Positions 25,301 to 61,622 of a DNA stretch of 64,000 nucleotides are shown in pieces. The stretch is taken from NCBI GenBank assembly GCA_963921825.1, contig OY997594.1, positions 11,103,001 through 11,167,000 on the forward strand, read 5' to 3'. Source of the DNA: Erodium maritimum. Its lineage: Eukaryota > Streptophyta > Magnoliopsida > Geraniales > Geraniaceae. Both the position numbers and the translations under genes were made by a program. The first letter of the stretch is position 1. The number at the start of each line of letters is the position of its first letter. The notes beneath the pieces are model-generated. The model saw only the letters and a program-made list of their open reading frames with translations. It made no database searches and was not told the origin of the DNA.

Positions 25301-25555
25301 GACGACGACGACGCTCTCTCCCTTGGATAGCACGTCGCCCTCGGATTTCACCCAGGAGACAATCTTGCCCTCCGTCATGGTGGAGCTGAGAGCGGGCATG
25401 AAGATCTCACGGATCTTGGCTTGTACGGTGAAGCCCCGGCGGCGGCGGGATTGGGAGGGGAAGGCGGCGGAGGAAGAGCGCCATGGGATAGGGGTTGAGA
25501 GGGAAATGGGGGAGGTTTTGGAGAGAGAAGCTCTGGAGAGGAATGTGGAGGCCAT
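22314..25555 (-). CDS. LTA2: Plastid pyruvate dehydrogenase E2 (dihydrolipoamide acetyltransferase)
   Basis: E2 core of the plastid pyruvate dehydrogenase complex, which makes acetyl-CoA for fatty acid synthesis. Six exons, 5' to 3': 25555-24659, 24562-24371, 24277-24190, 24057-23987, 23888-23805, 22418-22314; spliced length 478 residues, close to Arabidopsis LTA2. A Ser/Arg-rich N-terminus (1-45) looks like a chloroplast transit peptide. The lipoyl domain (about 47-125) has ESDKADMDV with lipoyl Lys89. Pro/Ala linkers flank the E3-binding domain (about 180-215, VATPYAKQLAKKHKVDI...GPFGRVTAADVE). The catalytic domain keeps NLGMFGVDRFDAILPPGQ and the DHRIVYGAD active-site segment at the C-terminus. 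An upstream in-frame ATG at 25585 would add ten residues; I prefer 25555 because it aligns with the known N-terminus. Intron 5 is the longest, 1386 bp. Confidence 0.94.
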
Positions 25556-26626
25556 AGCGGAAGAGAGGAATCGAATTGTCTGCAATGTGTTCGATGGACG
25601 GTCTGTGACAGTGAGACAGAGAAATAGGGAATGGGCGGAGAAGACGAGGGGGGTTGGTTGTTGTTGGAGAGGATTTGAGCTAACTCACTGTGTTTACATC
25701 GCCCTGCTCTTTCGGCCTGTCACCAAGTTCTTTAAACCCATCAAAGTAATTTCGAATTCTGCCCCATTTAAGTTATGTATTTTCTCACTGCCCCCTCTGA
25801 AATAGATTAATTAACATCTGCTCATTGTAGGATGGGCCTTTTTATTTCCCCTCATACGGATTGAGCCCACTAACTCATATCCAGATAGACTCACTGGTAA
25901 TTACCAGCATAAATGCACTGGGCTAAAGCCCTACATTTAGCGGATCATGTATGAAATTAGCATATGGGCTAGAAATGGGCATTTTTAGGAGCCCATAAAG
26001 AGTGGGCTATTTTAAGAATGCTGCTCATTGAAAGGTGGATTTGAGATTTTGAACGGAGTTAATGTGTTTATTAGTAAGTTAAGGAAAAATCAAGGAAATA
26101 GGCCAGATAAGATTCAAACTTACAACCCTAGATATGTAAAAATGAGTTCCTTACCACATGGACATCTATGAGTAGCAGGCTCTGAACTTATGAACTTATC
26201 CACAGTTGTAGAAAGTGAATTGTTCAAAGTTGTGGACTCGGAAACATATATAAACAGGCTTTAATTGGGTCATCATGTGGACTTGCAGGTATGTGGATCC
26301 TATGTAACTCCACTACTTTGATTATCATTATTAATATTTTATAATATTTAAATTTGTGTGAAAGTGACATTTTTGTTTGGCAATCAGCTATAATCCTATG
26401 TAGCCTCCGGATGATAATTGTGGATGCCAATAAGTAATATAATGGTAACCGTAGTGTGGGCCTTACCAATGGTGAATGGATCGTCTTTTTTCAACTCAGA
26501 CAATAAAGCTTCTCTCACTTACTTTGTACAAGCCTATGTATACTCAGTCTCTTTAGCAATTAAGAAAAAAGAAGAAAAGAGCTTATGTTCCATAGATCCT
26601 TGGGAGCCGCCTGTTCTGAATACATC
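25556..26626. other. Divergent promoter region of LTA2 and the HMA gene
   Basis: Upstream DNA of LTA2 (read left) and of the first HMA gene (read right). No repeats or coding frames were recognised. AT-rich in the middle. Confidence 0.5.
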
Positions 26627-28920: not shown

Positions 28921-31900
28921 CTAACCTCTCGCCCAAATCGTACTCCTCTGTCGCCACTGACGGTTGCCTTGGTGGCTTCAACCATCAAAGCTACCACTAG
29001 CCTTCTCTTTCTCCCATTCGCTTCTCTACCTTCTTCTCTGCTCGCTTCTGTGATGTCTTTGTGTTGTTAGCTCACAGTTACCTCTGGTCTATGTCTAGAT
29101 CTGGGCGGTGGAGCACCTTTTCTAGACCTTCTGGTCTCAGATCGGTGTAGATCTAGTCATTTGAAGATTGGTGGTCGTCGTGGTGGATAAGTCACTGCTC
29201 TATGCATGCAGATTTGACTCTCTTTTCGGCCCCGCTCCAGTCGTGGCTTGTGTTTTGGTCTCGTCGCCGTGAAAGGGTTCTCACCTGCCTCACTTTTCTC
29301 CAGCAAGCATTCTTCTTCTGACTCAGATTCTGAGCTACTCGTGAATCCGGTGGCCGTCTGTGGGCTCTTGTTCGTCTCTCTGGTTTGTTTGCTCAGATCT
29401 AGTGGAGTCGCGTGTACTCGGCCTTCACGCACTCACCCTTCCTCCTCCTTGTCAGTTCTTCTGTCTCACACTCGTTGAGGTTTCTCTCGCCTCATCTCCT
29501 CTACCATCCTTGCCGCTCTGGCCCTTTTTGGCCCCCTCGGGGTTTTTCCGGTGAAGAGTTGTCACGCCCCAAATCCGGTTTTGGCCGGACTCGAGACGTG
29601 ACCTAAAACAAACGAGGTAAGAGTAATAAAACTGTAATAAATTCCTTTACAACTGAAAACGAGTCCAAAGTATTTCTCAATAATCAAAAAATAAATATCA
29701 AAACTTGATAAGTAACAAAAGGTAAATAAAGTTCAACAATGTGGACCAACACATCTCTAATACAATCCTCAAGACATCCGGAAGCTCCCGAGCCTCGAAT
29801 TCCCCCAAATCTCAAGCATACCTGTACACACAATAAATAAACAAATAGGGGTGAGCTTACGCTCAGTAGGGAAAATCGTAAATGACCTTAGTCTCCAAGT
29901 TTAATATTAAAACTGGTTTAATTCGATGTCACAAAAGTATTTAAAACCCTTAGACCAGAGGATGTAATAAACAAATAAGAAGTAACATTATCAATAGTGC
30001 ATTCTCAAGGATAACGATAACTTCCCAGAGAATAAATGGAGAACATTATAATAAAATAGAAACCCATCACACCGGGAACAAGTAAATACTATTAAGCAAA
30101 GAAATGTTATGGAATTCGTTGTGATGAAATAACATCGCTTCTTCAAAGCTGACAGTAACTTAAAAGAAGTTCATAATAAACACTTTAACGGATCAATAAT
30201 AGTAAAAATGGGAATAATCAATATCTTGCCAACCACTCGCTTTCTCAAGCCTCCGATCCATGGATAGATTCTGGGATCACCTCGGTTCCCACATTCCGAT
30301 CCACCAGAGTATCCATATCATATCAGATTTTCCCTCGGTCCAGAGGGAATAAAGGAACAAACAGACAAACCAATAAACGAGCATACATTAAAGAATAAGA
30401 ATAAAGGAACAAGCATTTCATTCATCCATCAAGCAGCACACGTCGGAACACACTTTCATCACAACCCATACAACCAACACCATTTCATACTTACCGTACA
30501 CTTACCTGTCACCAACCATCGGTACATCGATCACCTGATTGTACCCCTTTGGCACAACCAGTCATACTCGATCATCCGTTCAACCAACAATTATATCAAC
30601 ATAGACACTCAATCAACCAAGTATGCATTCGACCAATCAATTATCATGTGAACGAACAAATAGGCATTCGATAAGACAAGCTAATCTAGTTTCATTAGAC
30701 TCTTAAGTTAACTCGAAAACAATCAATCAAGCATGTGAACCTAGCACGCAACTAATCCGAGAGCTCTTCACAGCCTCTCTACCAGTAAATCAAGTTCCCA
30801 AGTATTGAAAGCACACTTCACTAATTGTCCTCGTCCTAAGCATGCATACTAGACTCATCCATTTATTAGTAATTGAAATACGATTATTCTAGTTATTCGC
30901 ATCCTATAGGCAATTCTAGGACCTTTCCGATTTTATTATCCTAATCATGCATTCTAAGCGGTAATTAAGTAATTAAGACTTTCCCTACCTCGTGGTCTTC
31001 CTCTAATAAAACTCTGATGAAAAGCTCGAGTGATCAAAACTCCGTTCTTCACACAGGCTCCGGCGTGATCTTTGTTCTTCTAGCTCGGGTCCAAGTTCTT
31101 CGTTCTCGGGCGAAGTCACGTCTAGATTTGACAAATAAAATGTCCAATCAATAATGGTATTTGTCCAAATTTTCCCTTTAAAAGTCCAAATTAAATTAAT
31201 CAAACAATTAATTAACCTGAATTTAAAATGATTTATCTTTAGAACTGGGTTGACCCGGACCCAAAGCCCAAATCCGGATCCAGAACCCGGTCCAGACCCG
31301 GTCCGGATTTGACCCGACCCGGATCCGAACCCGGACCCAAGTCCGGCTCAGACCCGAGTCCGAACCCAACTGGACCTGGGCCGAGGTCCAAAGGGTCTGC
31401 CTGGCCCAAAAGGCCCGAAAATTTCTGCCCGGCCCATCCTGTCCAGAACCGAGTGTCCGTGCGATGTGGACCAGGGTTTGGTCTCGCCGCCGGCGACGAT
31501 GACGCCAGGGATGTCCGGAGGGAGTGAGACGGTGCCGGGGAATCGAGTCCAGTCGTAGATCCGGTGCTGTTCTTCCGGTGACCGGCGTCTCGCACGACTT
31601 CAGGCCCTCACAGGGTCCAAACGAGCCCAGGCGGTGCTTCGCTCCTAGCGATTCTCCGGCGACGCCATAGAAAAAGGGGAAGCGTTCCAGGGGAGGAGAA
31701 TCGAGGGGAGTTCCGACCGGTGAGCGGTTTCGAGCGTGCGATTCACTGGTGGGAGAGGTCGCCGACGGGGATGAGTGAGACCGTGCGTCTCTCAGCCGTG
31801 CTGGAACTCCGTCGCAGGCGAGGTGCGACCTGGAACGGGAACAGAGGCGCCGGAGAGGGAAGCGATGGTCGGGGTTGAGGGTAACGCTGTCAAGTGAACG

Positions 31901-36300: not shown

Positions 36301-37854
36301 TTTTTTTTTGGATAAGCGCTAAAAAATTTATTCGATGGTCATTCTCCAAGGAGGAGAAGCCAAAAGCAAGCAACCACGGTTACAAAAATCTCCATAAGAG
36401 AAACAGGGAACAAACCCTTAACAAAAAACGACCAGAATCAACCAGTCAAAACAACTTCCTCTAATCTTCCTCATACCACTCGATATCTGAGGTCACAATG
36501 CTAGAAGCCTTCTGATTGAGGGATTGGGTCTTGGACCTAGTATTCTGAGTACGAGGCACCAAAGTGGACTCAGGCCGTCCCTTACGGGCCTTAGCTGCGA
36601 GAGCTTCCTCTACCCACCCATCGATCGATTGCAGAGCTCTTTGGGACACGTTCTGAATGGGTGGAAGCTTCACCCCAAACACCTTATAATCCGAAAGATG
36701 TGGGGGAGCCCGACTCAAGCGTTTCGGGGACTTAAGGAGGGCTTCCTTCCATGCACCAGACTGATCCCCAGACGAAACACCCTTCTCTACATCCATACTA
36801 CCTGAACTGGGATCTAGGCTTTTCGGATCTGACCCAACAACAAGAGTTACTGAAGTTGGGCCTCTTGAAGGGATCTGGACTTGGGTTACTTGACCCATTA
36901 GCAACTCAAACCCATCTTGACTGTCATTAACCTGCACAAAAGGCAATGGGTCTGCTGAATCACCAGACCAAGGCCCAATTGGATCAAACGGCCCAACTTG
37001 TGTGACAGGATCATTAACTTCCCCAACCTGCGACAAATCCTCCTCAGACACGTGAAGCTGCGTAGACCTAGTATCTGCAGTCTGAATCTCAAGAACCTCG
37101 GAAACTCCGGGATCCGCAGCAGCCACATCCTTACTCGCTCGATTAGGGGCTTGAATTAGTGATTTCAAATTCGAAACTTTGATTTCGCAATCTGGTTTCG
37201 AAAAAGAAATCGAAAGAGTGCTCGTGAAATTCTCCAAAGAGATATGGGGGGATTCTGAACGACAGCCACCCGACTCCGGCAACCTTTCGCGCTGGTTTCT
37301 CGTTTGCCGGCATCCTCCTGTTTCCGAATTCAATCATGAATCCGATAACGAATTCTCTGTAATGCTATGCAATGTAGAAACCACCGGATTGGTGTTCTTC
37401 TCCGGCCTAGCAACATCAACCAGTAAAATATCTCCATTCAGCTTAAAGCCATTCATACACCTGACAGCCTGCTGAGCTTCTACCGACGACGAGAATTCAA
37501 TAAAACCGAAATATCGACCTCGAAGATTCGGACGTTTCAACACATGAACTGAAACAATTGATCCAAATGGACTGAAAACATTCTTTACCCACGTCTCAGA
37601 AGATTCAAACGGGAGATTTGATATGAACACCTTTGCCCCATTTGCAATCCGTCCCGGACTGATGTGAGGCTGCTCTTCTTGAGCTGAGTGAACCTGAGTA
37701 ACCTCAGCTGGAACCGACTTGGCCACTGCCTTGTTCCCAACTGCAGAAGTTTTCTCAATGCCACGAGAAGCCAGAACACCCTTGGGTCCATTAAAGCTTC
37801 TGCCTGGATCCTTTGTTGTCGGGGGAACAATTGTTGCCTTCCCCACTGGCTCCT
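36301..37854 (-). mobile_element. ORF1-only RRM retroposon ('half-LINE'), 3' part
   Basis: Minus-strand retroposon with poly(A) (oligo(T) at 36301-36309), preceded by ATTCACCTTATGTC (36287-36300), which recurs at 61623-61636 as a 14-bp target duplication. Its other end lies at 61535-61622, because a 23.7-kb LTR element split it. Across both pieces one frame of 493 codons (stop included) runs from 61619 to 36461, interrupted by one TGA at 37334-37336 (codon 202). An RNA recognition motif lies at about residues 102-179, with RNP2 VFISNLPF and RNP1 RGRYFGFIEF; the rest is hydrophilic and unrecognised. The 3' untranslated region ends AGCGCTTATCC-poly(A), LINE-like. No ORF2. RRM-bearing ORF1 proteins are known from some plant L1 LINEs, but a retrocopy of a host mRNA is also possible. 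Confidence 0.75.
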
Positions 37855-40800
37855 TGTAAAACCCCGCCCTTTCAAAAAGGATATTATTCGAAATAGGGAA
37901 ACGTAGGGGTGGATTTTTGCAATAAGAGATTTTGAGAAGAGAAAAATAAAAAAAAAAGGAAGGGAGAAAAGCAAAGTGGGCTGAACTTGGACATGGACCG
38001 AACTGGGCCATTTAGACACTCGGCCGGCCCAGTTCAACTGATGCAAAGCCTGGCCCAACAAGGGCAAGCTATATTTTGGAGCAAACCCTAGCTAAGGGTT
38101 ACTGTTCATTGTCCCTTCCTCTCTCTCTCACTCTCTATCTCTGCGCGAAATCCGACCAGCACTCGCCGCCGCTTCTCCCGTCCTCGATCTCTCGTCCTCC
38201 TCTCTTCGTGCAACGGAAGCGACCTGACCCTCTTACCCAGCTTCCCTCGAGTCTCCTTCTCCGTTCGCAAGACGAATTCTCGCGCAAACTCGATCCGGCG
38301 CCGGAGACCCCTCGCGTCAGGTTCGTTCTCTCCGGGCCAGCAACGAGCCGTCCCTCACCTGTTTCCCTCTCCCTCGACCTCGAATCGACAGGTTCCGCTT
38401 CTCCCCGAGCTCGATTCGAGGGTTTTGCTCTCAGAACCACCGTCGATGAGCAAGGGCTCACCGGATCTGCATCTGAAACGAGCCGGGGCTGCACCAGAAC
38501 CACGCCGTCGTGCGTCCCGATCTCGCCAAGAGTTCTGGCGTCCACTCAACCTCCGTTTCCTTCCCTCACGGTCTCACCTGACACCGTAGACGACGGTCGA
38601 CGAAGCCGTCTCTCGACGAAGCTGAGCCAGCTCGAGGACGAAGCCTGAGCAGGCTTTTGGGCTTGGATGGTTGGGCCAGAGTGATGGGAGTGGGCCGAGA
38701 CTCTGGTCTGGATCAGACAGACCTTGGGCCAGGCCCAGGACCGGACGGGTCTGGTTCTTGGACCGGGTCTGGACCAGGCCTGGGTCGGGTCCGGATCCGG
38801 GTCAGGGTCTACATCCGGGTCGGATCCGGGTCAACCCGGTTCAGAGAAAATACTTTTAAAATCAGATTTAATAAATTGATTTAATTTAATTCAAGGTGAG
38901 TTTTTAAAGGAATTTTTGGCCAAATCATTGGACCCTTGGACAATTACTGGTTCTAATTAGACGTTTTATTTGTCAAACCTAGACGGGACTTCGCCCGAGA
39001 TCAAGGGCTTGGACCGAGCTAGAAGAACGAAGATCACGCCGGAACCCGTGTGAAGAATGGAGTTGTGATCACTCGCGCTTTTCATCAGAGTTTTATTAGA
39101 GGAAGACCGCAAGGTAGGGAAAATCTTAATTGTTTAATTAACGCTTAGTATGCATGATTAGGATAATAAAATCGGAAAAGTCTCAGAATTGCATATAGGA
39201 TGCGAATAACTAGAATAATCGTCTTTCAATTACTAATAAATGGATGAGTCTAGTATGCATGTTTAGGACGATGACAATTAGTGAAGTGTGCTTTCAATAC
39301 TTGGGAAATTGATTTACTAGTAGAGAGGCTGTGAAGAGCTCTCGGATTAGTTGTGTGCTAGGATCACATGCTTGATTGATAGTTATTAGGTTAACTTAAG
39401 AGTCTAATGAAACTAGATTAGCTTCTCGTATCGAATGACTATTTGTTCGTTCACATGATGATTGATTGGTTGAATGCATGCTTGGTTAATTGAGTGTTTA
39501 TGTTGATATAATTGTTGGTTGAACGGATGATCGAGTATGACTGGTTGTGCCAAAAGGGTGCAATCAGGTGATCGATGTACCGATGGTTGGTAACAGGTAA
39601 GCGTACGGTAAGTATGAGATGGTGTTGATTGTCTTGGTTGTGATGAAAGTGTGTTCCGACGTGTGTTGCTTGACAGATGAATGAAATGCTTGTTCCTCTA
39701 TTCTTATTCTTGAATGTATGTTCGTTTATTGGTTTGTCTGTTCGTTTGCTTGGTTTGGTACTACACCGGGGGGGGGGGGGGGGGGGGGTAATCCGGTGCC
39801 GATGAGGTGGTTGGAGTTGGACAGATACAGTGAGTTAATGACAGAGTTTAGAGCCTGAGGGTATTGGTTACTGGATATTATAAGAGTTGAGTATTGGCAG
39901 ATCCTGCAGGATATTCTTTGGTTACTGGATATTATAAGAGTTGAGTATTGGCAGATCCTGCGGGATAGTCTTTGGTTACTGGATATTATGAGAGTTGAGT
40001 ATTGGCAGATCCTGCGGGACATTCATTGGTTATTGGGCCTGCGGGCATTTGGTTATTGGACCCTGCGGGGCATTGGTTATTGGGCATGCGGGCATTTGGT
40101 TATTGGACCCTGCGGGGCGTTGGTTATTGGGCCTGCGGGCATTTGGTTATTGGACCCTGCGGGGCATTGGTTATTGGGCATGCGGGCATTTGGTTATTGG
40201 ACCCTGCGGGGCATTGGTTATTGGGCATGCGGGCAATTGGACAGTTTACCCTGCGGGGAAAGGATTACTTATGGTTTCACCCCAAGGAACTGCATCCCAG
40301 TGGGTGCACTACTTGGTCCCCCATGACATATGGTCCTCAGGTGGCATTTCCGAATTAGTGTCGGTGCCTCGATACATGTACCTCCTCTGGACCGAGGGAA
40401 AATCTGATGTGATGTGGATACTCTGGTGGATCGGATTATGGGAACCGAAGTGATCCCAGAATGTATCCACGGATCGGAGGCTTGAGAAAGCAAGTGGTTG
40501 GCAAGATACTGATAATTCTCAGTTTACTTTTATTGTCCCTTTAAAGTAATTATTATAAACTTATTTATGTCACTGTCACTCGGATACTATGACGTTGTTG
40601 TAACTATTTCTGATTCTTTATCACTTCCTTATTTTTTTTTATTGTTCCGTTGTTCGGTTTACACTTGTAAGAAGTTTATCTTTAACGTAAGGGTTGAGTT
40701 ATTAAGGTTTTTCCTACTGAGCGTAAGCTCATCCCCTTTGGTTTCTAACTGTTTTACAGAAATACCGGTTGTCGAGGGAAGTCAAGGCTCGGGAGCTTTT

Positions 40801-41029
40801 GGACTTCTTTGGGTTTACTAGAGTTATGTTGGTCTCATGTATTGAACATCCTTTATTTGACCATCTTTGTTGAGCTGTGACTCACGATGTTTTTAAACTA
40901 TTTATTTATGTGTCGATTTTGACGGAGTTCGTATGAGATTTTGGAACTTTTATCTATCGTTTATGATTTCTTTTTATTTCAACTCAGGTCACGTCTCGAG
41001 TCCGGTCAAAACGGATTTGGGGCGTGACA
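37855..41029 (+). mobile_element. 5' LTR of the outer chromovirus (3175 bp)
   Basis: Runs from TGTAAAACCCCGCCC to GGGGCGTGACA. It contains a GC-rich part with long chance frames (38076-38648), a CGCAAG-GTAGGG block at 39109-39118, a run of 21 G at 39768-39788, tandem repeats (39863-40260), and the conserved hairpin at 40718-40731. Confidence 0.9.
39863..40260 (+). repeat. Two-tier tandem repeat in the 5' LTR
   Basis: Three units of about 55 bp (GTTACTGGATATTATAAGAG ... CAGATCCTGCGGGA) are followed by alternating 24-bp units built on TTGGTTATTGGACCCTGCGG and TTATTGGGCATGCGGGCA. The matching zone of the 3' LTR (about 60412-60755) has fewer of the short units. Confidence 0.85.
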
Positions 41030-41032
41030 ATT

Positions 41033-41045
41033 TGGTATCAGAGCC
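41033..41045 (+). other. Primer-binding site (initiator Met tRNA)
   Basis: TGGTATCAGAGCC begins four bases after the LTR end, the usual plant retrotransposon primer site. The same word follows the second LTR at 46472-46484. Confidence 0.9.
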
Positions 41046-41449
41046 TGGTTTCATTTGAAACAGGTTGTAGTTTTCGAACTTGTTTTCAAATCCTCGGACC
41101 AACGTCCTTTAGGTGGGTAGAGTTAGGAAGTCTAAGTCGAGTGCTCGGTGATGCGGAGTTAAACACATTGATGCATAGAGTAAGAACGACTCGAGTCTTA
41201 CCGTTTAATTGTTACTTCATTTTGAACTCCTCTTACTATAACGGTTATGTCGCTTGAGTGGTACCCTTACCTTATTTGACTGTAATGTACAGTGATCGGG
41301 GAAACCGAATGGTTGAGATCGGTATTGGGTTAACGAGCAATGATGGAACCGTATGGTATGTTGCTGAATAAACTATCTATTAAGTGCGTTACTACCGTGT
41401 TGGTCAGTTCTTGTTTATTAAAATGGAAGAGTCATTTGATTGAGGTAGT

Positions 41450-43455
41450 TGTAAAACCCGGTTTGGTTTAAAAGGGTATTAAAGTGCAACTAGTACTTGG
41501 GGGTTGTTTTTGCTTCGAGTTGGTTTAAAAAAAAGAAAGGGAATTGTCGGACTGAAAAGGGGTTTGGGCCAGACCTGGCCCAAACCAGACGCGCGCCCCA
41601 AGCCCGTCTTGAAGCCAGGCCCAGCTGCTGGTGCATTTTCAGACCACAAGCCAGTATTTGCGCTGAAGAGCTGGAGACATTATCTGTACGGTGAGCAGTT
41701 CAGGGCGTTTTCAGACCACAAGAGCCTCAAGTATATCTTCTCGTAGCGTGATCTGAACATGCGCCAAAGGCGATGGATGGAGCTACTTGAAGAGTATGAC
41801 TTCGAGTTGCTCTATCATCCGGGCAAGGCGAACGTGGTCGCCGATGCTTTGAGCAGGAAGTCGAGTCACTGCGTTGCCAGCATGGCAGTCCGAGAGTGGG
41901 ACATGCTGGAGCAGTTGAGCTTATTCAGACTGGAGTTGGAGGAGGTCACAGAGAGTATGACCTTGTGTGCCTTAGTGGCTCAGCCCACACTTTTTGCTCG
42001 AGTGTTGGAGGCACAGACCGAGGACGCCGAGACAGCAGGGATACGTGAGAGATTAACAGAGGGTGCCGAGCTCGAGGGTTGGGAGATGGGCACCGACCAG
42101 GGTATCCGCTTTAGAGGACGACTGTTTGTACCCAGTAAGTGCAGAGACACTGTGTTGCGTGAGTGCCACTACTCTCGTCTGGTTGTGCACCCCGGTGGCA
42201 ACAAGATGTACAGAGACATGCGGCGACAATTTTGGTGGAGTGGGATGCGTGGGGCAGTTGCAGATTTCGTGTCTCGATGCCTTACCTGCCAACAGGTAAA
42301 GGCCGAGCACATGCGTCCAGCAGGCTTGCTACAGCCTTTACCGATCTCTGAGTGGAAGTGTGAGCACGTGACTATGGATTTTGTGTGTGGGTTGCCCAGG
42401 TCGTCGAAGGGGCACGACACCGTGTGGGTGGTGGTTGACCGACTGACCAAGTCGGCCCACTTTCTGGGTATGAGGATGACCGATCCTGTGGACATGTTGG
42501 CTCGTTTGTATGTCAGGGAGATTATTCGTCTGCACGGTGTACCAGTGTCAGTGGTATCGGATAGAGATCCCCGTTTCACATCCAAGTTCTGGAAGAGTCT
42601 ACAGAAGGCCTTGGGCACTGAGGTTCTGTTGAGTACAACTTACCATCCTGAGACAGATGGACAGTCAGAGCGCACCATTCAGATTCTAGAGGACATGCTT
42701 CGAGCGTGTGTGCTTGACTTTCAGGGATCATGGGAGGATCATTTGCCTTTGGCAGAGTTTGCCTACAAAAACAGTTATCAGTCCAGCATTGGTATGACAC
42801 CATTCGAGGCCTTGTATGGTAGACCCTGTAGATCGCCAGTATGTTGGGCTGAGGTTGGGGACAGGAGCTTACTCGGGCCAGACATGATCAGGGAGACAAC
42901 CGAGAAGGTCACCTTGATTAGAGAGCGGCTGAAGACCGCGCAGAGTCGGCAGAAGAGCTACGCCGACAGGCGTCGTAGACCACTTGAGTTCATGGTGGGG
43001 GAGCATGTGTTTCTGAGGGTGAGCCCGAAGAAGGGTCTTGTGCGGTTTAACCGCAGCGGGGGCAAGCTGGCACCGCGTTTCATCGGACCATTTGATGTGT
43101 TAGAGAAGATTGGAGCCATAGCTTATCGGTTGGCCTTGCCACCACAACTTGGGAACGTGCATAACGTTTTCCATGTGTCCCAACTGCGGAAGTACATAGC
43201 AGACCCTTCGCACATCATTGAGTGGTCAGACATCGAGGTAGCAGATGATGTCACCTTTGAGGAGCAGCCCGTTGAGATTTTGGGAACGAAGGAGAAGATC
43301 CTGCGGAACAAGACGATCCCGTTGGTACTAGTATAGTGGGGACATCAGGGAGCAGGATCCACTTGGGAGCGCGAGGATGAGATCCGCGTGAAGTATCCCC
43401 ACCTGTTTGACGCTTGAGGTACGTCTACTTTAAATTTCGAGGACGAAATTTCTTT
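41450..43455 (+). mobile_element. Second chromovirus subfamily: LTR piece plus 3' pol part
   Basis: 41450-41637 copies the first 190 bp of the LTR at 43469-46468. It is followed by the 3' part of pol, including an open frame of 525 codons at 41759-43336. In order: end of RNase H (KANVVADALSRK), the HHCC zinc-binding part of integrase (RLVVHPGGNKMYRDM...CLTCQQVKAEH), the integrase core (TMDFVCGLPRS, VVSDRDPRFTSKFWKSL, TTYHPETDGQSERT), and a C-terminal region with NVFHVSQLRKYI leading toward a chromodomain. These are Tekay/Del features. Gag, protease and most of the reverse transcriptase are absent, so this is only part of an element. Confidence 0.88.
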
Positions 43456-43468
43456 AAGGGGGGTAGAC

Positions 43469-46468
43469 TGTAAAACCCGGTTTGGTTTAAAAGGGTATTA
43501 AAGTGCAACTAGTACTTGGGGGTTGTTTTTGCTTCGAGTTGGTTTAAAAAAAAAAGAAAGGGAATTGTCGGACTGAAAAGGGGTTTGGGCCAGACCTGGC
43601 CCAAACCAGACGCGCGCCCCAAGCCCGTCTTGAAGCCAGGCCCAGCTGCTGGTGCAGCCCAACCCTAACTACAAAAAGAGGGAGACGCCACTCAGTGCCC
43701 ATTTTGGTGCACGGTTCCCGAGGCGTGTCTTCAACCCCCAGACACGCCCTCTCCCTCCCGATTCGAACCAGAGGCGACGTGCCTCTTTCTCCGGCCACCC
43801 ACCGTCTCCGAGCACCACACGCCCTGCTCCAGCCTCATCTCCTTCCTCTCCTCCGTCTGCTCTCTCTCTCTCGACAAAACCCAACGCCCTGAAACCCTCT
43901 CGTCCCTCCGCCCTCTCGACCGTTCAGACCCTCGCCGGCGTCGATTCGAAGACGCCCGTGCCTGTTTCAGGCATCTTCGTCAACGGTGAGTCATCCCTCG
44001 CCAGATCCACCCTCCTCACTCTCTTCTTCGCCGGACGTCACGAATTCCGGGTTCGTCTGGGCTTCGGAGTGGACGGGAGAGCGTCGCCGGAGTGCTCAAG
44101 TTCCAGATCTGGAACTTCGACGCCGTCGAGCTCCTTGGCCGTCCGATCTGACCAGGAGAGCTCGGACCTCCCCACTGCCGACCTTCCCTTTTACCTTCTC
44201 GAGCTCCTGGCGTAACCGCCGTCGTCACCGGAGACCACCGGAACCCTAGCCCCGTCGACCTCCATTCACGGCTCAGGCAGGACGAAACCCAGTGTTAGGC
44301 TCGGGCCTGGGTTCAGTTGGGCCTCGGGCCTGGATTCGTCTGGGCTTGGGGCTGACTGAATCTGAGTCTGGGTTCGGGTTGGGTTCCGGGTCGAACTCGG
44401 GTCGGCCGGATCGGACAGACTCATTTAATTATTTTAAAACGACATTTGAAACTAAGTCGGACTTTTATCGGATTAATCGGTGTAATCAAAGGAATTGAAG
44501 AACTGTTAAATAAAAGAACTGGTTAATCTGAACCCGGTCTGATTTTAGACCGTTGTGTGTAAACCCAGATTCATAGCTGGGACTTCGCCGAGGTGACGAG
44601 GCGAGTCAGACAGCTGTTGATAGGAGTATTTGTTCGTAGGAAGACCGCAAGGTAGGGAAAGCATTAATTACTTATTTACCGCTTAGATTGCATGATCAGG
44701 ATAATAAAATCGGAAAGGTCCTAGATCTGCCTGTAAGATGCGAATAACTAGATTAATCGCTTTTTCCATTACTAATAATCGGATGAGTCTAGTATGCATG
44801 TTAGGACGATGACAATTAGTGAAGTGTGCTTCAATACTTGGGAAATTGATTTTACTGGTAGAGAGGCCGTGAAGAGCTCTCGGATTAGTTGTGTGCTAGG
44901 TTCACATGCTTGGTTGCTAATTACTCGGTTAACTTAAGAGTCTAATGAAACTAGAGTAGCTCGTATGATTGAATGCTAAATAGTTGTTCACTTGCTGATT
45001 GATTTGTCGAATATAAACTTGCTTGATTGAATATTTACGCTAATATAATTGTTGATTGAACGGATGATCGAGGATGACTGGTCGTGCCACGGGGCACGAT
45101 CAGGTGATCGATATACCGCTGGTTCGCGACAGGTAAGTACGGTAAGTATGGAGTGTATTGGATGTCTTGGTTATGACAAAAGTGTGATCGGTTGAGTGTT
45201 GATTGGTGACCCATTTATGCTTGTTCCTTTATTCTTATTCTTGAATGTATGCTCGTTTGTTGGGTTGTCTGTTGGTTTGCTTGGTTCGGTACTACACCGG
45301 GGGGGGGGGGGGTAATCCGGTGTCGTTGTGATGGTTGGAGTTTGACAGAGGCAGTGGTTATTGGGTGCTTATGGAGTGGTTAATTGAGTGATGTGAGGAG
45401 CCTACGGCTCGGTAGATCCTACGGGATGTTGAGTGATGTGAGGAGCCTACGGCTCGGCAGATCCTACGGGATGTTGAGTGATGTGAGGAGCCTACGGCTC
45501 GGCAGATCCTACGGGATATTGAGTGATGTGAGGAGCCTACGGCTCGGCAGATCCTGCGGGATATTGATGAGATTACTTCATGAGAGTCGGGTTCTAAGGT
45601 TTCACCCAATGGTATGCGTCCTACGGGAGCATTACTTTGGTTCCCTATGATTATGGTCCCTTGGAGACGCTTTCGAGAATACCGAAGGCGAGCCTCCCTA
45701 TGGGATGGTGCCCGGTATTCCGACACTTATATGTCTCCCTCCGGATTGAGGGAAAATCTGATATGATATGAATACTTTAGTGGATCGGAATATGGAAGCC
45801 GAGGTGACACTAAACTTTATTCATGGATCAGAGGCTTGAGAAAGCAGTTGGTCGGCGTAATATCAATTACTCCCACTTAGTCGTTATGATATCTTACGTT
45901 AATCCTGTTGTGGACCCTTTCAAGTTAATGTTGTTTTCGAGAGTACAAGTCTATCGTATTACATCTTAGTTATACTTTCTTTCATCGTGTTATCTTATTC
46001 TATTTCATTTGTTTATTGTCTCATCGTACTTATCTTAGCATCGTACTTATCTTAGTCTATATTGTGACGCCTTATTTCATTGTGGTCGTGTTGACTCTTA
46101 TTTAAGTCATTCGTTTACGCAGTATATTGTTGATCCAAGGGTAAATTGTTAAGGTTTTTCCTACTGGGCGTAAGTTCACCCTTTGTTTTTCTTACTGTTT
46201 TACAGGAGTATCTGATGAGTAGAGAGGAGAGGCTTGGGAGCTTCCGTGATCTTGGGTTTTAGCTTAGACTTATGTTGGTTGTCGCTCTAAACGTTTACTT
46301 ATTACTTTACTTGTTGAGCTGTGACTCACTGGAGATTCTGAACTATATTTACTGATTTGAGGAGATTTACTTGTCTATTTCAAAAGTTTATAATTGCTAA
46401 TTATCTTTTTTCTTTACAAATTCTTCTCACGTCTCAAGTCCGGTCAAAACTGGATTTGGGGCGTGACA
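43469..46468 (+). mobile_element. LTR of the second chromovirus subfamily (3000 bp)
   Basis: TGTAAAACCCGGTTTGG to GGGGCGTGACA. The polypurine tract lies just before it and a primer-binding site just after (46472-46484), so it acts as a 3' LTR for the left side and a 5' LTR for the right side. It shares block order with the outer LTRs but has its own U3 and its own tandem repeat. It carries a run of 14 G at 45299-45312 and the hairpin at 46165-46178. Confidence 0.88.
45384..45563 (+). repeat. Four 45-bp tandem repeats in the LTR
   Basis: Four nearly perfect units of 45 bp, each starting TTGAGTGATGTGAGGAGCC and ending in GATCCTACGGGAT or a close variant. Confidence 0.92.
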
Positions 46469-49400
46469 ATTTGGTATCAGAGCCTGGTTTCATTTGAAAC
46501 AAGTGGTAACTTTCGAACCGTTTTCAAAAACCTCGGACCAACATCTTTTAGGTGGGTAGAGTTAGGAAGTCTAAGTCGAGTACTCAGTGATGCGGAGTTA
46601 AACACGTTGATGCATAGAGTAAGAACGACTCGAGTCTTACTATTTGTTTGGTTACTCAACGTTGAACTCCTCTTACTATAACGGTTGTGTCGCTTGAGGG
46701 ATACCCTTGCCTTGTTGATTGTCAGATGCAGAGATCGGTGAAACCGATTGGTTGAGATCGGTATTGGGTGAACGAGCAATGACTGAACCGTTGTGTGATG
46801 CTTGTTGAGTAGACTGTTATCTGATTAAGTGTATTACTGTTGCGGCCGATTATTTTGGGGTGTTAAGGTTGAAGGGATTAGTTGATTGAAGTATTGATGA
46901 CGTGGGAGATTGGAGTTATTGGATTGTGACTTGTCGGAATGGGGAGTGATCAAATAGTGAACTTAAGGAAGGGTTGGAACGTTAAGATTTTGGGAATTGT
47001 TTGAGTTTTGATATTGGTTAAGGAATCAAGGTTGAAAAGAATGGAACGTAGGGATTCTTGCCCCCCTTTCTGATTGTGTGCATACTTTCCAAAGTTTGAG
47101 AACTCCTTGTATTGAGTAACTTGGAAATTTTGATGTGGTAAAATGTTCCATTTAAACAGGGGAGTTAGTGGAAAATACAAATAGGTCATGCCGAATTTTC
47201 TGTAAAACTATATGGGTTGTTCTGTCACGGGTTGACTCAGGGTACCACTGTAGTCAAACGTGATGGTTGGATGTCAAGTGGTTACAACGAGGTTCGGGGA
47301 CGCCTGAATCGAGTTGTAACGATGCGAGATCGACTTGATTATTTTGAGTAAAAGATAAGGGAATTTGGGAAAGAGAAAGTCTTGGCTAAAAGAATTTAGG
47401 ACTTAATTCCACATTGTTTGCTTCACACTTTGAGACCCTAGTGATGGGTGCGGTTGTGCGTGAACGTCATTGTGTTTTGACCGAACCGATTGTTCTAAAC
47501 GAGACTTCGTACTAGCGATCCAAATGGGATCCATTTAAGACGTATGAGAACGTCCCTTTTTGATAATTTGAACCACTTGAGTTAATTTGAGATATGAGTA
47601 CTTACGTTTTAAATGCAACGAATACGCGAGATATCCTGTGTTTACAGTCCGAGAGGGACCAGAAGTCGCCCCGCTGTGGGGCAGGACCAGACACCAGCCG
47701 TTGGTCTGGCATGGACAGCAAATGCCAGGGTGCGGCTCCCACAGGACACCAGAGTTGGGAGGTAGACCGGTAGGGTCACCAGCGAGCTTTCTTTCAGTCG
47801 CAAAGTCGACTCAGGCGACCCCTATGGATGAGGTAATCGCGCAGTGCCATCAGCGCTCAGTAGGAGACTGCAGTATCGACACCAGAGTTGTGCCTACGGA
47901 CGACGTCGTTACTATTGAGAGGCCAGGCCAGGTACATCGCAACTCGACCAGGCTCTCAGAAATTTTCGGAGGTTGAGCACGTCAATCAATCCAGGGGGTT
48001 CAGACCCCGAGGCAGCTGTAGTATGGTTGGAACGGGTTATCCGCAACTTTGTTACGTCGAGAGTATTCAGATGATCATCTGAGAATGCTTTCGCGACCGT
48101 TCCGCTTGAGAAAGAAGCATGTTACTGGTGACGGTTGTGCAAATCAGGGTTGGAGGTGACTTTTAACCGTTCAATAGATTGTTCATGGAACAATATCTTT
48201 CCCTCGATCCGTTCGAGAGGACCAACACCAGCGATTGTTTGATATGCAACAGAGAGGGATGACCGTCTCTAAGTATGAGGCGAGGATCATGTCCATGTAG
48301 CGCTTCGCGCCGAGATGGTGCAAACCGAGGAGAGTCGCCACAGGCGTTCGAAAGAGGATTCACCCCATCTGTCGCGGAGCAAGTTATTACATTCAGATTG
48401 AGGACTTTCTGTACTAGTGGATCAGGCGCTAGCCGTTGAGAATCATCTTCAAGAGACCGCCAGAACGCGGAAGAACAGGCCGAGGCCGAGTGGCTTCTTA
48501 AGGCCGTCAAGGAGTCGCGATACTAAGAGGCAGAGAACCTCAGGATTGTTTCAACCCCGGACCCATTCCGGTGGGACACGACGGGTTGGGGCAGCAGCGT
48601 CGATTGGATCTGCCCCGGTGGCACAGTTTTGTCATTCGTGCAGGCAGTTGGGACATCTGGGCCGGGACTGCCCATGGAGGGTGTATTCACAAACCGTCCT
48701 GCAGGTCGACCTACGAGAGCCGATGAGAGGACAAGCTATTACAGCAGCAGATCCCTTCACCATCGAGAGGAGGACTCCTGTTACAGCGGGGCCGAGCATA
48801 CGCGATTGCCGGGCCCCGAGCTGAGGGACTTGTTACTGATCTGGAGATCGCTTAGAGTACCTGTTTACGATTTACATTTTGGATTTCTTAGTTGCTGACA
48901 CTTAAGTCTTACACTTGGTTGTGTCGTGTCGTGATTACCTTGGTGGATCGAGTTTCAAACTGGTAAGCCCACCCATATCTTAAACACACCGACCAGAGGT
49001 GTGATAGTACCAACGAACGCCAGTTTGGGTGTGAAAGAGGAGCAACATACCTAGTAGTACGGGAAATTCTTTTCCTTCGTCGATGGTGAGAATCGAGTTT
49101 TAAGAACCGATTGGTGAAACATCAGACGTTCGTCGAAAACTTTCGGCAGCGAATGCCCGAGCAGTGAAGGGCTGCGGCCTTGACTAGTAAATGGTCCGAG
49201 CGGTCACAAGAGATGACCGAGCAACGATAAGATTAGAGTAGCGCAGCGGAAGCGTGGTGGACCCTTAACCCACGGGAGTAGTAATCTCCAGTTCGTTTAC
49301 CTCCGCTAGAAGGTTTAGGTCATAAGATTCGAACCTTCAAGGCGATTTTGCTTCAAATCCCGTTTAGCGAGCGGAAAGTCGCATAAGTGTGTGCCGCACT

Positions 49401-49908: not shown

Positions 49909-52900
49909 TGACACTCCGAGATTTAACCCTCAGAATGGTACGGCAAGCATACCGGTCGTCAAGTAGTATTCGGGATTTAGTCCGAGATATCGTACCCAAG
50001 GGAGCAATTAGACAAGCACTTTAGTTAATTAATTCGCTAGTCAAGCTATTCCTATACTGGTGATTGGTTTGGTTTTGTAACATGTAAATTCATGCAAGTA
50101 ACGAGATTATGTGAATGATCCGAAAATAAGCACAAAGTCACAGGATTGTAAATCAGAGATAAAAGGCGATCTAGGACTTTAACGGGGTTCGAATGTGATG
50201 AATGATTTAACGGGGTTCGGTATACATTTGCAACTAATATTATTCTAAGGGCAACGGGAATTCTCTAAGTATAGTCCTAACCATCTCTCGATCGTATTAG
50301 GACCCTAACATACTCGGTCCACCTAATTATCTCTAATCTAGGTGTAGAGCGGTATATAGCATTATATTCTATGAATTCCTCTAACTTTCAGGTTTTACTC
50401 CTATGGCTATTGCACTCGTGTCAGTCTAACCATACTCTGGCTTAGATTAAAACCCGAGCTATTTAATTCCTTTTTCCTCTTCCTAACCTCATTTCTCAAT
50501 TGTTGGTTAACAAGATTAAATCATACATAAACGTGATCAAGGCAATGTAGCATTACGAACGGAATTAAATAAACGAAATCCTAATACTAGTTAACAAATG
50601 CATAACTCAACCAAGTTAATTCAACCCATCACATCTTCACCCCTAGCCCTAGATCATGAGAGTTTAGTTCATAGCACGAGAATAAGAACACATAGAGATG
50701 AATAAAACACTGAGATTCATATTAAACATTAAGAGTAATACCAATATCAAGTTTCAATGCAATTACACAAAACCTTGATGTTCTAATCTCTTGCTTCGAT
50801 CTTCTCTCCAAGTTCTCCAAGCTCCAAAGTGTGTTTTTCTCCTCCAATTCGTGATCCCTCAATTTTGACCTAAATTCCCTTTTATATGACGGGTTAACTC
50901 TGATAAAAATTAGGAAACGCAGTTGGAAATCGCGTTTTTGACGCTTGCACGGTCGCTTGCACGCCGTGCAAGAAAATGGTGCAGATTCTTGACTCCTCTG
51001 TTCTGAGTGCACCAGTTTGTTGCACGGCGTGCAACAAATTGGTGCATGTTGCTGACACTTCTGCCCAACTTCCAAATTCGCTCCGTTTCATTCCCGAATT
51101 GCCCTTTTTTGCTCCGAAAACTTGGTGAACCCTGAAACAAGACCAAATACACAATACGAGAGTAAAATGCATCATTTCATATTAACTCGGGACTAAAAAG
51201 AGCATAAATGTGGGCTAATGACATCTAAAATAGATGTATTTTATGTCCACATCAACACCCCACACTTAAGCTTTTCTCGCCCCGAGAAAATTAAACTAAC
51301 AAAGCAGTAAGATATGTCCCGGTTAAACCCCGAGGTTCACCCCGATAGGAGGAGTCCGGGCCTCCTTTATTCAAACATGGTAAAATAAAGATGCACGTGC
51401 AATGCATGATCCTATTACTAATGCAACCTATGACTCAACTATATGATGCATGCAAAAGTTCACGAAAAGTTGGTGATTTACGATCCCAAGCACACAAATT
51501 GATCGAAAGGGTTTTCTCAAAGTTATCACATGCTAAAAATTCTTGCACGGCTCAAAATAATGCATAAACCGATGAACATACTGCATGTGAAGAGACTTGC
51601 AATAAAGCCTACTCAATTTAGTTTACAAACCTTCTGTTAACTTTGACAGGTGTTCCTCTTTTCCCTATACACAGTTCTTAGAGATTCATAAGCAAGCATT
51701 TTCAATCCCCTCTCCACTAATTATAAGGAATATAGGCAATCACGAATCACACAGGGCTTTAATTAGGCTTGTAATGATCGGCTAGGTATAGGGTATGGTA
51801 AGGTATATGAAAAGAAGCTCAACATATACATCTTGGCAAACATGCTTCAACTCACATCCCAACAGTGTATCTCTCGACCCATAACCCCCCACTTGTGCAC
51901 TAAATACCATTTTCACTTCTCTACACCCTTATGTATATATATTTGTTTCAATGACTTCTCTTGCCTTTTCTTTCTACTCGTGCTAATTTTCACCCTTACC
52001 CCTCACTTTTTTTTTTTTTTTGCACAGAAGAGAGCTTTTTTTTTTCTCTTATCTTTTAGAGGGAAGGCTGAGAGCACAAATATTACAATATACCCGGCAC
52101 ATTAAACAAAATACTTATTTCTCCAGTCATTTAAATCTCATTCCCAACCACCAACCACAATATCCACACTCAAGAAGCACCTACGCCAAGAAGTATGGGT
52201 TCAAATAAAACTGAGGATATTTAAATGAAATGAAGGGCACATAGGTTTGTAGTATTCAGGTTAGAAACGAAAGGCCAAAGCTCAACATGGGTGACTAGTA
52301 GATAATCATATATTCATAAGTAGGAAATTTAGCACAAACGGTCCAATAATGGCCTATGATCATTTTCTTAATCACCTAATTCCTTATTTTATTTCGCCTC
52401 GAGAGGATATCTGTGAAGTTCTAGACTCAGGTTACCATGTATAGGACTTGGAGGACTCAAGTACACATCAAAGTAACTGCCCAGAATGCAAACAAATGAG
52501 CATGTCTCACTACATGTGCTTACACAAGTCAATTCATTCATACTAAATCGATGCAATCTTTTGAAATATGCAATAAAAATGATCATGTCCAACATTCCAA
52601 TCCTTGAAACCTTAAAATCATATGCACTAAGCTCAATAAACCACCAGAAAATATTTTTTTGATTTTCAATTTTTTTTTTTGAAAATTTTGAAACACAATG
52701 ATGCATGAAGCACACAATGCAAACACACTAAGATCTACGATCTCCCACCCCACACTTAAAACCTTGCACTGTCCCTAGTGCGACTCAATCCTATACATGC
52801 TCCTAACCACATACAGGCAACCCCACACTTGTGTAGAACTATCAACCAAATCAGAGAACTAAGATGCATAATCTATCAGCACAACAAATTAGGTGCTCAA

Positions 52901-55900
52901 CACACACCAGAGAAACATCAAAGTTCACAAGTAGATATTAACATAATAAACAATAGAGGGATAGAGATACTGCCCCTTCACCGGTACTACTTTTTCCTGA
53001 ATACTGGAAATTGCCTTTATGCATGGTAGATGGAATGCTACTTCGCCCAAGTGAGATCTCGAGAACTCGGCGCCAAAAAATATAAATTTAACCCTCAAGC
53101 TTCTATCCTGTATCACCAACTTGCACAAATAATCAGAAAAGAGCAAGACTAAACATATACAAACGAAGAGGGGTAGAGATATTGGGTTGCCTCCCAACAA
53201 GCGCATGTGTTTAGCGTCGTTAGCTCAACGGGAAGGAGGCTCAATCAGGAGGCCTCCCACAAATATCGTACATCCATTGCGCCCTTCTCTTTAAATGTGA
53301 GTGAAAAACTAGGAGAAGACACACAATATAGTACAAAATCCATTTTCTTGAGTTTTGCACAAGTTCCAAACTCAAGGCTAATCTCATCAAGCTCGCCAGA
53401 ACAGAATAATTATGATTTGACTCATCCTGAAAAAACTCGATAGGGATATGAATCCCATGAGGTGGAAAAGTCTCACGACCACAAGGGCCAAGAGCATTTA
53501 CCACAATTGAGTAACAATTCACAAACGGGTGATAAGAACTAGCAAATGTATCAGCAAATTCATGCTTAATATTAACAACTCTATGCTCAACATATAATTT
53601 AAAAATCAATGGGACGGGTTGAACATATAGAGTTGATTTGCTAGAATCCAAAAATGAATCTCCCATGCTAAAGGGAATTTCGACATCATGCTCGATGTCT
53701 ACCAAAATAAAATCAATGGAAGATTCAAATACCAACCCTCTCTTGAGAGCATCTTCCATAGTACCCCTTGGATATCTTATAGATTTCTCAGCCAACTCTA
53801 TGGATACTATGGAAGGATTCGGCTCAGCAAACGCTTGTGAACTCTTTTCTACAATTATACAATTATTATTTACATCTACATAATTCAAAGCATCAAAACT
53901 ACATGGAGATGGAATAGATACAGTACAAGAGGAGTAAGAACTTGGTACCTCACATTCCGCACTTACCTCTAAACTCATGGTTGGATAATGAGTTTCTTGT
54001 TTTGTTGTATCACCTAAGTGCTCGGAATGATCTTCCTCAATGTGAATTGCTTGATCGTGTAGAGATCTCTCATTCACCAGTTGTATAAGAGGATTTATAT
54101 GATTCGTTGCATTGACTATTTGGCCCAATTGAATTTCCAACTTCTGGAACCGGGAATCATTGTTCCGGTTCACTGTCTGCTGCTCCTACGCAGATGTCTT
54201 ATACAACTCAATCATCTCCTTTCTATCCTCCTTCATCTGTGCCATCATGGTTAACATCATCTGCTCCAATTTGGAGGAAGACTCTTGTGGTTCAACTTGA
54301 TAACCTTGATCACAAGTGGAAGGCTCCTCCCAATATTGAGAATATGCATTTGAATTCAAGTATTCACGATTATAGTTAGAATGATCATAAGCTCCGCAAC
54401 AATCACAATACGCAATATCACAATACCAATTCTCCATAAAAATAATGATGCAATGAATCAACTAAACAAATATATACAAATAAAAATTGAAATAGTCTTA
54501 ACACGAATTATAAACGTATCAGAGTTGCCTTAGTTGCTCCCCGGCAACGGCGCCATTAACTTGACACTCCGAGATTTAACCCTCAGAATGGTACGGCAAG
54601 CGTACCGGTCGTCAAGTAGTATTCGGGGTTTAGTCCGAGATATCGTACCCAAGGGAGCAATTAGACAAGCACTTTAGTTAATTAATTCGCTAGTCAAGCT
54701 ATTCCTATACTGGTGATTGGTTTGGTTTTGTAACATGTAAATTCATGCAAGTAACGAGATTATGTGAATGATCCGAAAATAAGCACAAAGTCACAGGATT
54801 GTAAATCAGAGATAAAAGGCGATCTAGGACTTTAACGGGGTTCGAATGTGATGAATGATTTAACGGGGTTCGGTATACATTTGCAACTAATATTATTCTA
54901 AGGGCAACGGGAATTCTCTAAGTATAGTCCTAACCATCTCTCGATCGTATTAGGACCCTAACATACTCGGTCCACCTAATTATCTCTAATCTAGGTGTAG
55001 AGCGGTATATAGCATTATATTCTATGAATTCCTCTAACTTTCAGGTTTTACTCCTATGGCTATTGCACTCGTGTCAGTCTAACCATACTCTGGCTTAGAT
55101 TAAAACCCGAGCTATTTAATTCCTTTTTCCTCTTCCTAACCTCATTTCTCAATTGTTGGTTAACAAGATTAAATCATACATAAACGTGATCAAGGCAATG
55201 TAGCATTACGAACGGAATTAAATAAACGAAATCCTAATACTAGTTAACAAATGCATAACTCAACCAAGTTAATTCAACCCATCACATCTTCACCCCTAGC
55301 CCTAGATCATGAGAGTTTAGTTCATAGCACGAGAATAAGAACACATAGAGATGAATAAAACACTGAGATTCATATTAAACATTAAGAGTAATACCAATAT
55401 CAAGTTTCAATGCAATTACACAAAACCTTGATGTTCTAATCTCTTGCTTCGATCTTCTCTCCAAGTTCTCCAAGCTCCAAAGTGTGTTTTTCTCCTCCAA
55501 TTCGTGATCCCTCAATTTTGACCTAAATTCCCTTTTATATGACGGGTTAACTCTGATAAAAATTAGGAAACGCAGTTGGAAATCGCGTTTTTGACGCTTG
55601 CACGGTCGCTTGCACGCCGTGCAAGAAAATGGTGCAGATTCTTGACTCCTCTGTTCTGAGTGCACCAGTTTGTTGCACGGCGTGCAACAAATTGGTGCAT
55701 GTTGCTGACACTTCTGCCCAACTTCCAAATTCGCTCCGTTTCATTCCCGAATTGCCCTTTTTTGCTCCGAAAACTTGGTGAACCCTGAAACAAGACCAAA
55801 TACACAATACGAGAGTAAAATGCATCATTTCATATTAACTCGGGACTAAAAAGAGCATAAATGTGGGCTAATGACATCTAAAATAGATGTATTTTATGTC

Positions 55901-61400: not shown

Positions 61401-61529
61401 TTTATTTATGTGTCGATTTTGACGGAGTTCGTATGAGATTTTGGAACTTTTATCTATCGTTTATGATTTCTTTTTATTTCAACTCAGGTCACGTCTCGAG
61501 TCCGGTCAAAACGGATTTGGGGCGTGACA
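58417..61529 (+). mobile_element. 3' LTR of the outer chromovirus (3113 bp)
   Basis: Partner of 37855-41029, with the same ends, a run of 26 G at 60311-60336, fewer 24-bp repeat units, and the hairpin at 61219-61232. Length differences between the two come mainly from the G run and the tandem repeats. Confidence 0.9.
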
Positions 61530-61622
61530 CTCCTTCTTCCCACGCTTCTTCCCCACATGATCCTTCTTCCCTCGCTTATATCTTGAGCCCGGAACCGAGG
61601 TTCCGTTGATACCCTGCATAGC
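61530..61622 (-). mobile_element. ORF1-only RRM retroposon, 5' part
   Basis: The remaining 5' end of the retroposon at 36301-37854, past the LTR element. It starts at 61622 on the minus strand, and its first codon (ATG, 61619-61617) begins MQGINGTSVPGSRYKRGKK, a basic N-terminus. The 14-bp duplication follows at 61623-61636. Almost no leader precedes the ATG, so the copy may be 5'-truncated. Confidence 0.75.

Follow-up and report, generated by a model that had tools for sequence, protein, structure and literature searches.

A putative intron inside the long terminal repeats of an abundant retrotransposon group in Erodium maritimum, with a conserved hairpin at its candidate branch site

Long terminal repeat (LTR) retrotransposons of plants are generally intron-less, and the exceptions given in the passages at hand of a 2025 review include EVADE and Ogre, the latter being a Ty3/gypsy element with a functional intron (PMC12786077). 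Here we describe a hairpin-bearing segment that is very probably a spliced intron lying wholly within the LTRs of elements from the genome of Erodium maritimum. The starting point was a stretch of 64,000 nt from contig OY997594.1 (assembly GCA_963921825.1, forward-strand positions 11,103,001 to 11,167,000), hereafter the window, in which six large LTRs carry the hairpin TGAGC-GTAA-GCTCA or a variant of it. The Ogre intron is in the internal region, and Ogre belongs to a different Ty3/gypsy lineage, whereas the present intron would be inside the LTR. The barley Copia element BARE1 is likewise a plant LTR element, with capped RNA that is partly spliced and with one RNA pool for translation and another for replication, but its 104-nt intron is outside the LTR, at the end of gag, and produces a spliced subgenomic Gag RNA (PMC3735527, in the parts available). 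The shGAG intron of the Arabidopsis Copia element EVADE also gives rise to spliced and unspliced isoforms with different purposes, the unspliced one being enriched in the nucleus; that intron follows gag, and the available passages of PMC8892269 mention neither an LTR intron nor a branch-site hairpin. The Bongo1-3 elements of beet, which belong to the Tekay clade, share with the present elements their long LTRs (~2.6-3 kb when untruncated) and 5-bp target site duplications (TSDs), but no LTR intron or hairpin is mentioned in the available passages of PMC3605345, where the word "intron" occurs once, as an insertion site.

One further candidate precedent, PMC4558846, was set aside because the available part concerns transcripts driven by LTRs in a tapeworm. 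In the literature at hand, with subscription journals mostly outside the search, we found neither an LTR-internal intron of chromoviruses nor the present hairpin described. Likewise, the texts available on branch-point stem-loops and on GNRA packaging signals yielded nothing describing it, and neither the 14-mer nor either of two shortened or variant forms was present in the literature texts searched. A likeness can be drawn to retroviral leaders, in which the splice donor is in R, the packaging signal is within the intron and intron retention marks the genomic RNA. In retroviruses, however, the acceptor is far downstream, whereas in the present case donor and acceptor would fall within one LTR.

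The hairpin was confirmed at all six LTR positions named in a preliminary description of the window: 40718-40731, 46165-46178 and 61219-61232 on the plus strand, and 29852-29865, 6217-6230 and 5270-5283 on the minus strand. Both variants are also as described there, with a GTGA loop at 6217-6230, so that the R of the GNRA loop is G, and, at 46165-46178, TGGGC-GTAA-GTTCA, in which two of the pairs are G-U. A search with the 19-letter CCTACTGAGCGTAAGCTCA, allowing up to 3 mismatches, matched exactly these six sites and gave zero matches in 100 dinucleotide shuffles. The 14-mer alone at the same tolerance had two extra matches, at 7789 and 14562, with 3 mismatches each; these were rejected as hairpin copies, both being inside an unrelated repeat pair. 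Because the LTRs at 37855-41029 and 58417-61529 form the pair of one element (94.9% identical, with the TSD CTCCT on both outer sides), the six LTRs represent at most five independent insertions. Across the genome (763 Mb in 40 contigs), the 14-mer TGAGCGTAAGCTCA has 7752 exact copies (3860 + 3892), while a reversed control pattern has none.

All six window copies are followed by a T-rich run and then TACAG, ending 27-30 nt past the hairpin. Upstream, the 5' splice site motif AG|GTAGGGAAA is present in five of the six, and the interval from it to the end of TACAG is 1032-1646 nt. The segments delimited in this way would be introns at 39114-40759 (1646 nt, GTAGGG...TTTTACAG) in the 5' LTR, at 59657-61260 (1604 nt) in the 3' LTR of the same element and at 44652-46205 (1554 nt) in a second element, all on the plus strand, and at 29822-30988 (1167 nt) and 6188-7219 (1032 nt) on the minus strand. 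For the copy at 5270, also on the minus strand, no 5' splice site motif was found upstream; its putative 3' splice site has an AG with its last base at 5241, and its LTR appears truncated or interrupted. In the 5' LTR, the U5 part at 40760-41029 would be exon 2, with the conserved motif GGCTCGGGAGCTT at 40786-40798 by column identities. Tandem repeats with a period of ~47-54 nt are found inside the segment at 39864-40258 and 60412-60758.

The same arrangement was found elsewhere in the genome. Over the ~1.5 kb of upstream sequence covered for 30 loci (L012-L041, taken from the 4569 pattern matches described below), AG|GTAGGGAAA with up to 3 mismatches was present in 19, one of which, L032, reads TT for GT. 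Among 41 distinct introns, which were picked through fuzzy motifs at both ends and are biased to that extent, 39 start with GTAGGG and 40 end in TACAG or TTCAG. We also took the first 100 of 4569 matches to a pattern that fixes CTAC, YCC and the exon-2 motif and leaves the 14 hairpin letters free. In 84 of these 100 copies an AG ends 28-31 nt past the hairpin, and in one at 37; an AG between 11 and 27 nt occurs in a single copy, and one at 10 nt in 36. The T content of the intron exceeds that of the preceding 300 nt in 34 of 34 copies, and its GC content is lower in 32 of 34.

A GT...AG segment of this kind, including the hairpin, is missing from one LTR, designated L044 (C4:13851409-13851446). 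Here GACCTTGAG is joined directly to GCTTAATTGAGGAG, and the sequence downstream of the join reads GCTTAATTGAGGAGTAGAGGCTCGGGAGC. The LTR itself is 1521 nt long, starts with TGTAAGACCC, ends with GGGGTGTGACA and has a perfect 5-bp TSD, CCCTC, on both sides. It was found by a pattern in which the end of exon 1 is followed, across a variable gap, by exon 2, and it alone among the 5 matches has GACCNNNAG as a true exon-1 end. In comparisons of L044 with seven relatives, the matches stop at LTR position 1259 and resume at 1257 in each; six are two-sided, for example L050 with 93.6% and 98.1% identity on the two sides, and L056 matches on the downstream side only. With up to 26 intron bases retained, the junction pattern could have revealed 378 different combinations, so that random deletion is unlikely to have produced an exact join; the AGG common to the two breakpoints nevertheless makes it likelier than 1/378. 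We read L044 as an integrated copy of a spliced RNA. Because it lacks precisely the GT...AG segment, the hairpin very probably sits in a spliced intron internal to the LTR, on the evidence of this single copy.

Other intron-less candidates, obtained with patterns giving 3 and 5 matches, were discarded: in L042 the hairpin is still present and the GACC falls in exon 2, C1:131892207 keeps the 3' end of the intron, and the remainder have different upstream sequence. In a wider junction search with 726 matches sorted by mismatch, only the first of the best 100 is a junction. Another junction search gave one unrelated match, equal to the one in its control, and a BLAST search revealed no second intron-less copy among 40 scored of 1509 candidates.

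The block that contains the hairpin, TTTT.CCTAC-TGAGC-GNAA-GCTCA-YCCC (40708-40735, plus strand), was delimited by column identities. In an identity profile of the last ~0.6 kb of the LTR, based on 33 non-redundant of 36 aligned copies, it is among the three most conserved blocks, together with the LTR end and GAGGCTCGGGAGCTT, whose conservation is partly by choice, since it served as the search anchor. The preliminary description had stated that the surrounding LTR has diverged far more, and this holds: the median 14-nt identity is 0.49, against 0.94 for the hairpin. When the hairpin was left out of the search (first 30 of 5241 matches to the exon-2 motif alone), both stem arms, TGAGC and GCTCA, were present in 30 of 30 loci and a GNRA loop in 28, the exceptions being L076 and L077. 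In the 100-copy sample the stem is unchanged in 87 copies, all five pairs are kept in 95 and a GNRA loop in 95; like the 30 loci, which it overlaps, this sample comes from the first places on contig C1 and is biased to intact exon-2 motifs. The stem is also unchanged in 16 of 18 further loci identified with exon-2 or junction probes (L048-L058, L060-L066), the exceptions being L062 and L064. The main free position among the 14 letters is the N of the GNRA loop, as fits a tetraloop: 67 of the 100 copies have T there and 33 have C, and A occurs in 10 of the 22 TGAGC/GTTCA matches listed. In those ten, the GAAA loop thus goes together with a G-U pair in the stem (TGAGC-GAAA-GTTCA). A diverged copy at 1572-1586 of L042 reads CCTACTGAGCGAAACGCTCATCCC, in which the pairing is kept and extended to six pairs and the tetraloop is replaced by a three-base loop.

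Selection on the hairpin block is thus close to certain, while selection on the pairing itself is only suggested. Two variants retain pairing through G-U, TGGGC/GCTCA in 4 of the 100 copies and TGAGC/GTTCA in 157 copies genome-wide. The latter change (C11T) can be compared with G4A, which breaks a pair, as both have an identical 5-base context inside the palindrome; the counts are 157 and 111 (p 0.006). We nevertheless set this excess aside as support for pairing, because the ten C11T matches with a GAAA loop may belong to one amplified lineage, and the excess would vanish without such copies if the 10/22 share holds overall. The double change G4A+C11T is present in 4 copies, against ~1.5-1.7 expected if 10000-12000 copies are assumed and with the stem almost invariant. 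Moreover, the CTAC before the hairpin and the CC(C) after it are as fixed as the stem by column identities, so that the pairing bases are not distinguished from their neighbours. The preliminary description, which had proposed a selected RNA element, was therefore borne out as to selection and as to the conservation of the stem, but the conservation is not confined to paired bases, and selection at the RNA level is suggested only. It had named a lack of covariation, or equally conserved non-pairing neighbours with stem-breaking changes common, as what would tell against it; with the neighbours equally conserved and G4A+C11T not clearly above chance, the data go about half of the way there.

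Structure prediction gives a mixed picture. The 14-mer alone forms five pairs at -6.2 kcal/mol, and a 33-nt context of the copy at 40718 folds as the hairpin with a z-score of -3.98; when the context of this copy is widened to 73 nt, a different fold is preferred. In the minimum-energy folds of five 73-75-nt contexts from the window, the stem forms in three, has four pairs at 46165 and is not formed at 40718. Several GCAA-loop copies have alternative predicted folds that engage the 3' arm. An Rfam search of 37800-47000, up to E = 1, had as its sole match a miRNA family at 38746, far below its cut-off, and a scan of IMG/VR for the block gave 0 matches.

The roles suggested in the preliminary description, namely packaging, dimerisation or 3' end formation, miss the location of the hairpin, which directly precedes a probable 3' splice site and belongs to a segment absent from L044. 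It more likely helps to control the splicing of the element RNA than to form its 3' end. We propose a U2-type intron of ~1.0-1.6 kb with this block as its branch-point region, and transcription that would start in the LTR upstream of this intron. Splicing would connect exon 1 of the LTR with exon 2 on the U5 side, ahead of the primer binding site, and would yield an mRNA with a shorter leader; the RNA that retains the intron would be the genomic RNA. Two branch-point-like sequences are predicted, both within the stem and both in the interval 20-50 nt upstream of the 3' splice site where a branch point is expected: CTCAY on the 3' arm, with its A ~27-31 nt upstream of the AG, and CTACTGAG on the 5' arm, ~38-42 nt upstream. 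In the RNA, the latter candidate (CUACUGAG) is 11 nt further from the AG than CUCAY. As the stem would pair both, folding would hide them and slow splicing, and enough unspliced RNA may be left in this way for replication. Near relatives of L044 have an AG ~10 nt past the hairpin, but the join in L044 is not at this AG. A branch at CUCAY would be in keeping with that, since by general splicing rules this AG would be too near. The branch consensus is UACUAAC. Copies with CTACTAAG...GATCA match it better while breaking two pairs, so that either site may be the branch point.

There is a precedent for such control, in that a branch site hidden in an aptamer stem lowers splicing in vitro and in vivo, with an effect that depends on the ligand and on stem stability (PMC2275289, in the passages at hand). 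We lean slightly towards the hairpin being a branch-site element on which pairing acts as a brake. That the stem is a splicing brake, taken by itself, is a tentative proposal to which we give rather less than even weight. The complete scheme, in which a 14-nt GNRA hairpin holding the branch point of an abundant chromovirus LTR intron acts as the splice brake and sets the split between spliced and unspliced RNA, and in which reverse-transcribed spliced RNA founds intron-less LTRs such as L044, is possible yet on balance doubtful.

Several observations weigh against this reading. L044 is a single intron-less copy, compared with 4569 copies that keep the 3' end of the intron, and the AGG at both breakpoints would permit a microhomology deletion. 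The mean T content is 26.6% in the 300 nt before the intron, 34.5% within it and 41.4% in the 230 nt after it; because exon 2 is richer in T than the intron, the composition fits a plant intron on the 5' side only. In 15 of the 100 copies none of ACAG, TCAG and ATAG is found where the AG normally falls, and 14 of these keep the full stem, so that the hairpin does not strictly track the splice site; unless they are recent, such copies argue against a function linked solely to that site. Two copies from different subfamilies, L062 and C1:16786837, have CTACTAAG...GATCA (TAAGC for the 5' arm), which breaks two pairs. Of 36 copies, 67% have the stem predicted with P>0.5 in a 60-nt context and 53% in a 120-nt context, and the z-scores of the 73-75-nt contexts of five window copies range from -1.94 to +1.35. 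The conserved stretch also extends past what a branch point alone requires. Lastly, a stem of only five pairs may lack the strength to prevent splicing in vivo, where, according to work cited in the available part of PMC2275289, inverted repeats failed unless they were long. Of the 15 copies without the AG, 11 have AT in its place (ACAT or GCAT); these 11 come from several subfamilies, and all but one of them have an intact stem. Examples are C1:7315342, C1:15123273, C1:18109400 and C1:23029573.

Some of these points would be accommodated by a packaging or dimerisation signal, that is, an intronic hairpin bound by the Gag of the element in a psi-like manner. Such a role stays a rival because the intron would be present only in unspliced genomic RNA, and it would account for a GNRA loop retained with a free N and for the full stem in the 14 of 15 copies that have lost the 3' splice AG. 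The first ~0.5 kb of the intron (window 39114-39613 and equivalents, 33 copies) is also conserved, as an intronic packaging region would be, with 0.69-0.95 identity per 20 nt, compared with about 0.5 past +640 and before -100 relative to the intron start; it is possibly a packaging or regulatory region. The position near the branch point and 3' splice site, the equal fixation of CTAC and CC(C) and the absence of clear covariation tell against packaging, Gag binding being hypothetical, and we regard it as unlikely. The equal conservation of paired and unpaired positions would suit a plain sequence element, in which a branch-point and polypyrimidine signal (CUACUGAG / CUCAYCCC) is incidentally palindromic; the excess of C11T over G4A may stem from an amplified GAAA-loop lineage. 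Incidental palindromy, however, does not readily give ten pairing bases around a GNRA loop that varies mainly at N, variants such as TGGGC/GCTCA and TGAGC/GTTCA that retain pairing, or five pairs in 95 of 100 copies, and we consider this explanation unlikely too.

At the DNA level, TGAGC-N4-GCTCA is a perfect inverted repeat and might be the site of a dimeric transcription factor in the LTR. It is, however, ~2.9 kb into the 3.2-kb LTR at 37855, just ahead of the conserved TACAG and among strand-specific neighbours, and its loop retains G..AA instead of varying freely, which makes a factor-binding site improbable. Finally, L044 could be a chance microhomology deletion in elements with no functional intron, the block serving 3' end formation or another purpose. 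A single intron-less copy, the AGG at both breakpoints and the existence of copies with ACAT for ACAG would be in keeping with this, but the exact GT-AG ends among 378 detectable joins and the conservation of both splice-site motifs across subfamilies render it highly improbable. Among these explanations we retain the branch-site element, at the strength given above.

The element that contains the copy at 40718 has its 5' LTR (TGTAAAACCCC...GGGGCGTGACA) at 37855-41029, preceded by CTCCT at 37850-37854, and its 3' LTR at 58417-61529, followed by CTCCT at 61530-61534; both are on the plus strand, as determined by repeat comparison and the TSD. A primer binding site, TGGTATCAGAG, which we take to be of the initiator-tRNA type, is located at 41033-41043 (plus strand). 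An integrase open reading frame (ORF) at 41747-43336, on the same strand as the hairpin (plus), was identified by a domain search with Integrase_H2C2, SH3_Tf2-1 and rve, the last below its cut-off. The ORF stops at LRNKTIPLVLV and has no Pfam Chromo match; LRNKTIPLV is presumably the start of a Tekay chromodomain. With a Ty3-type integrase carrying SH3_Tf2-1, long LTRs and a 5-bp TSD, all Tekay-type traits, the element is likely Tekay-like, though the chromodomain itself was not found. The 3' end of the LTR (CGAGTCCGGTCAAAACCGGATTTGGGGCGTGACA; window 4964-4997 on the minus strand and equivalents) is very conserved and contains the palindrome CCGG-TCAAAA-CCGG; it has 16,118 matches at up to 3 mismatches in the 763-Mb genome.

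Other features of the window include a 2.3-kb direct repeat, 99.8% identical, at 49909-52246 and 54562-56898, a 279-nt part of which occurs again at 56894-57172. A near-identical 389-nt repeat pair (7640-8028 and 14413-14801) is found around an ORF at 13017-13826 with Copia-type gag_pre-integrase/rve domains. Two pieces of host genes are also present, one for a POT/PTR2 transporter at 18597-19493 (plus strand) and one for a biotin/lipoyl plus E3-binding protein at 24602-25684 (minus strand).

If the proposed reading is true, the LTR-internal intron would be another exception among plant LTR elements, in a group with those 16,118 LTR-end matches. It would provide a simple answer to the question of how such elements split one transcript between translation and replication. 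With such LTRs the genome would also receive donor and acceptor sites that are ready for use, and intron-less genomic LTRs would record past splicing without RNA data.

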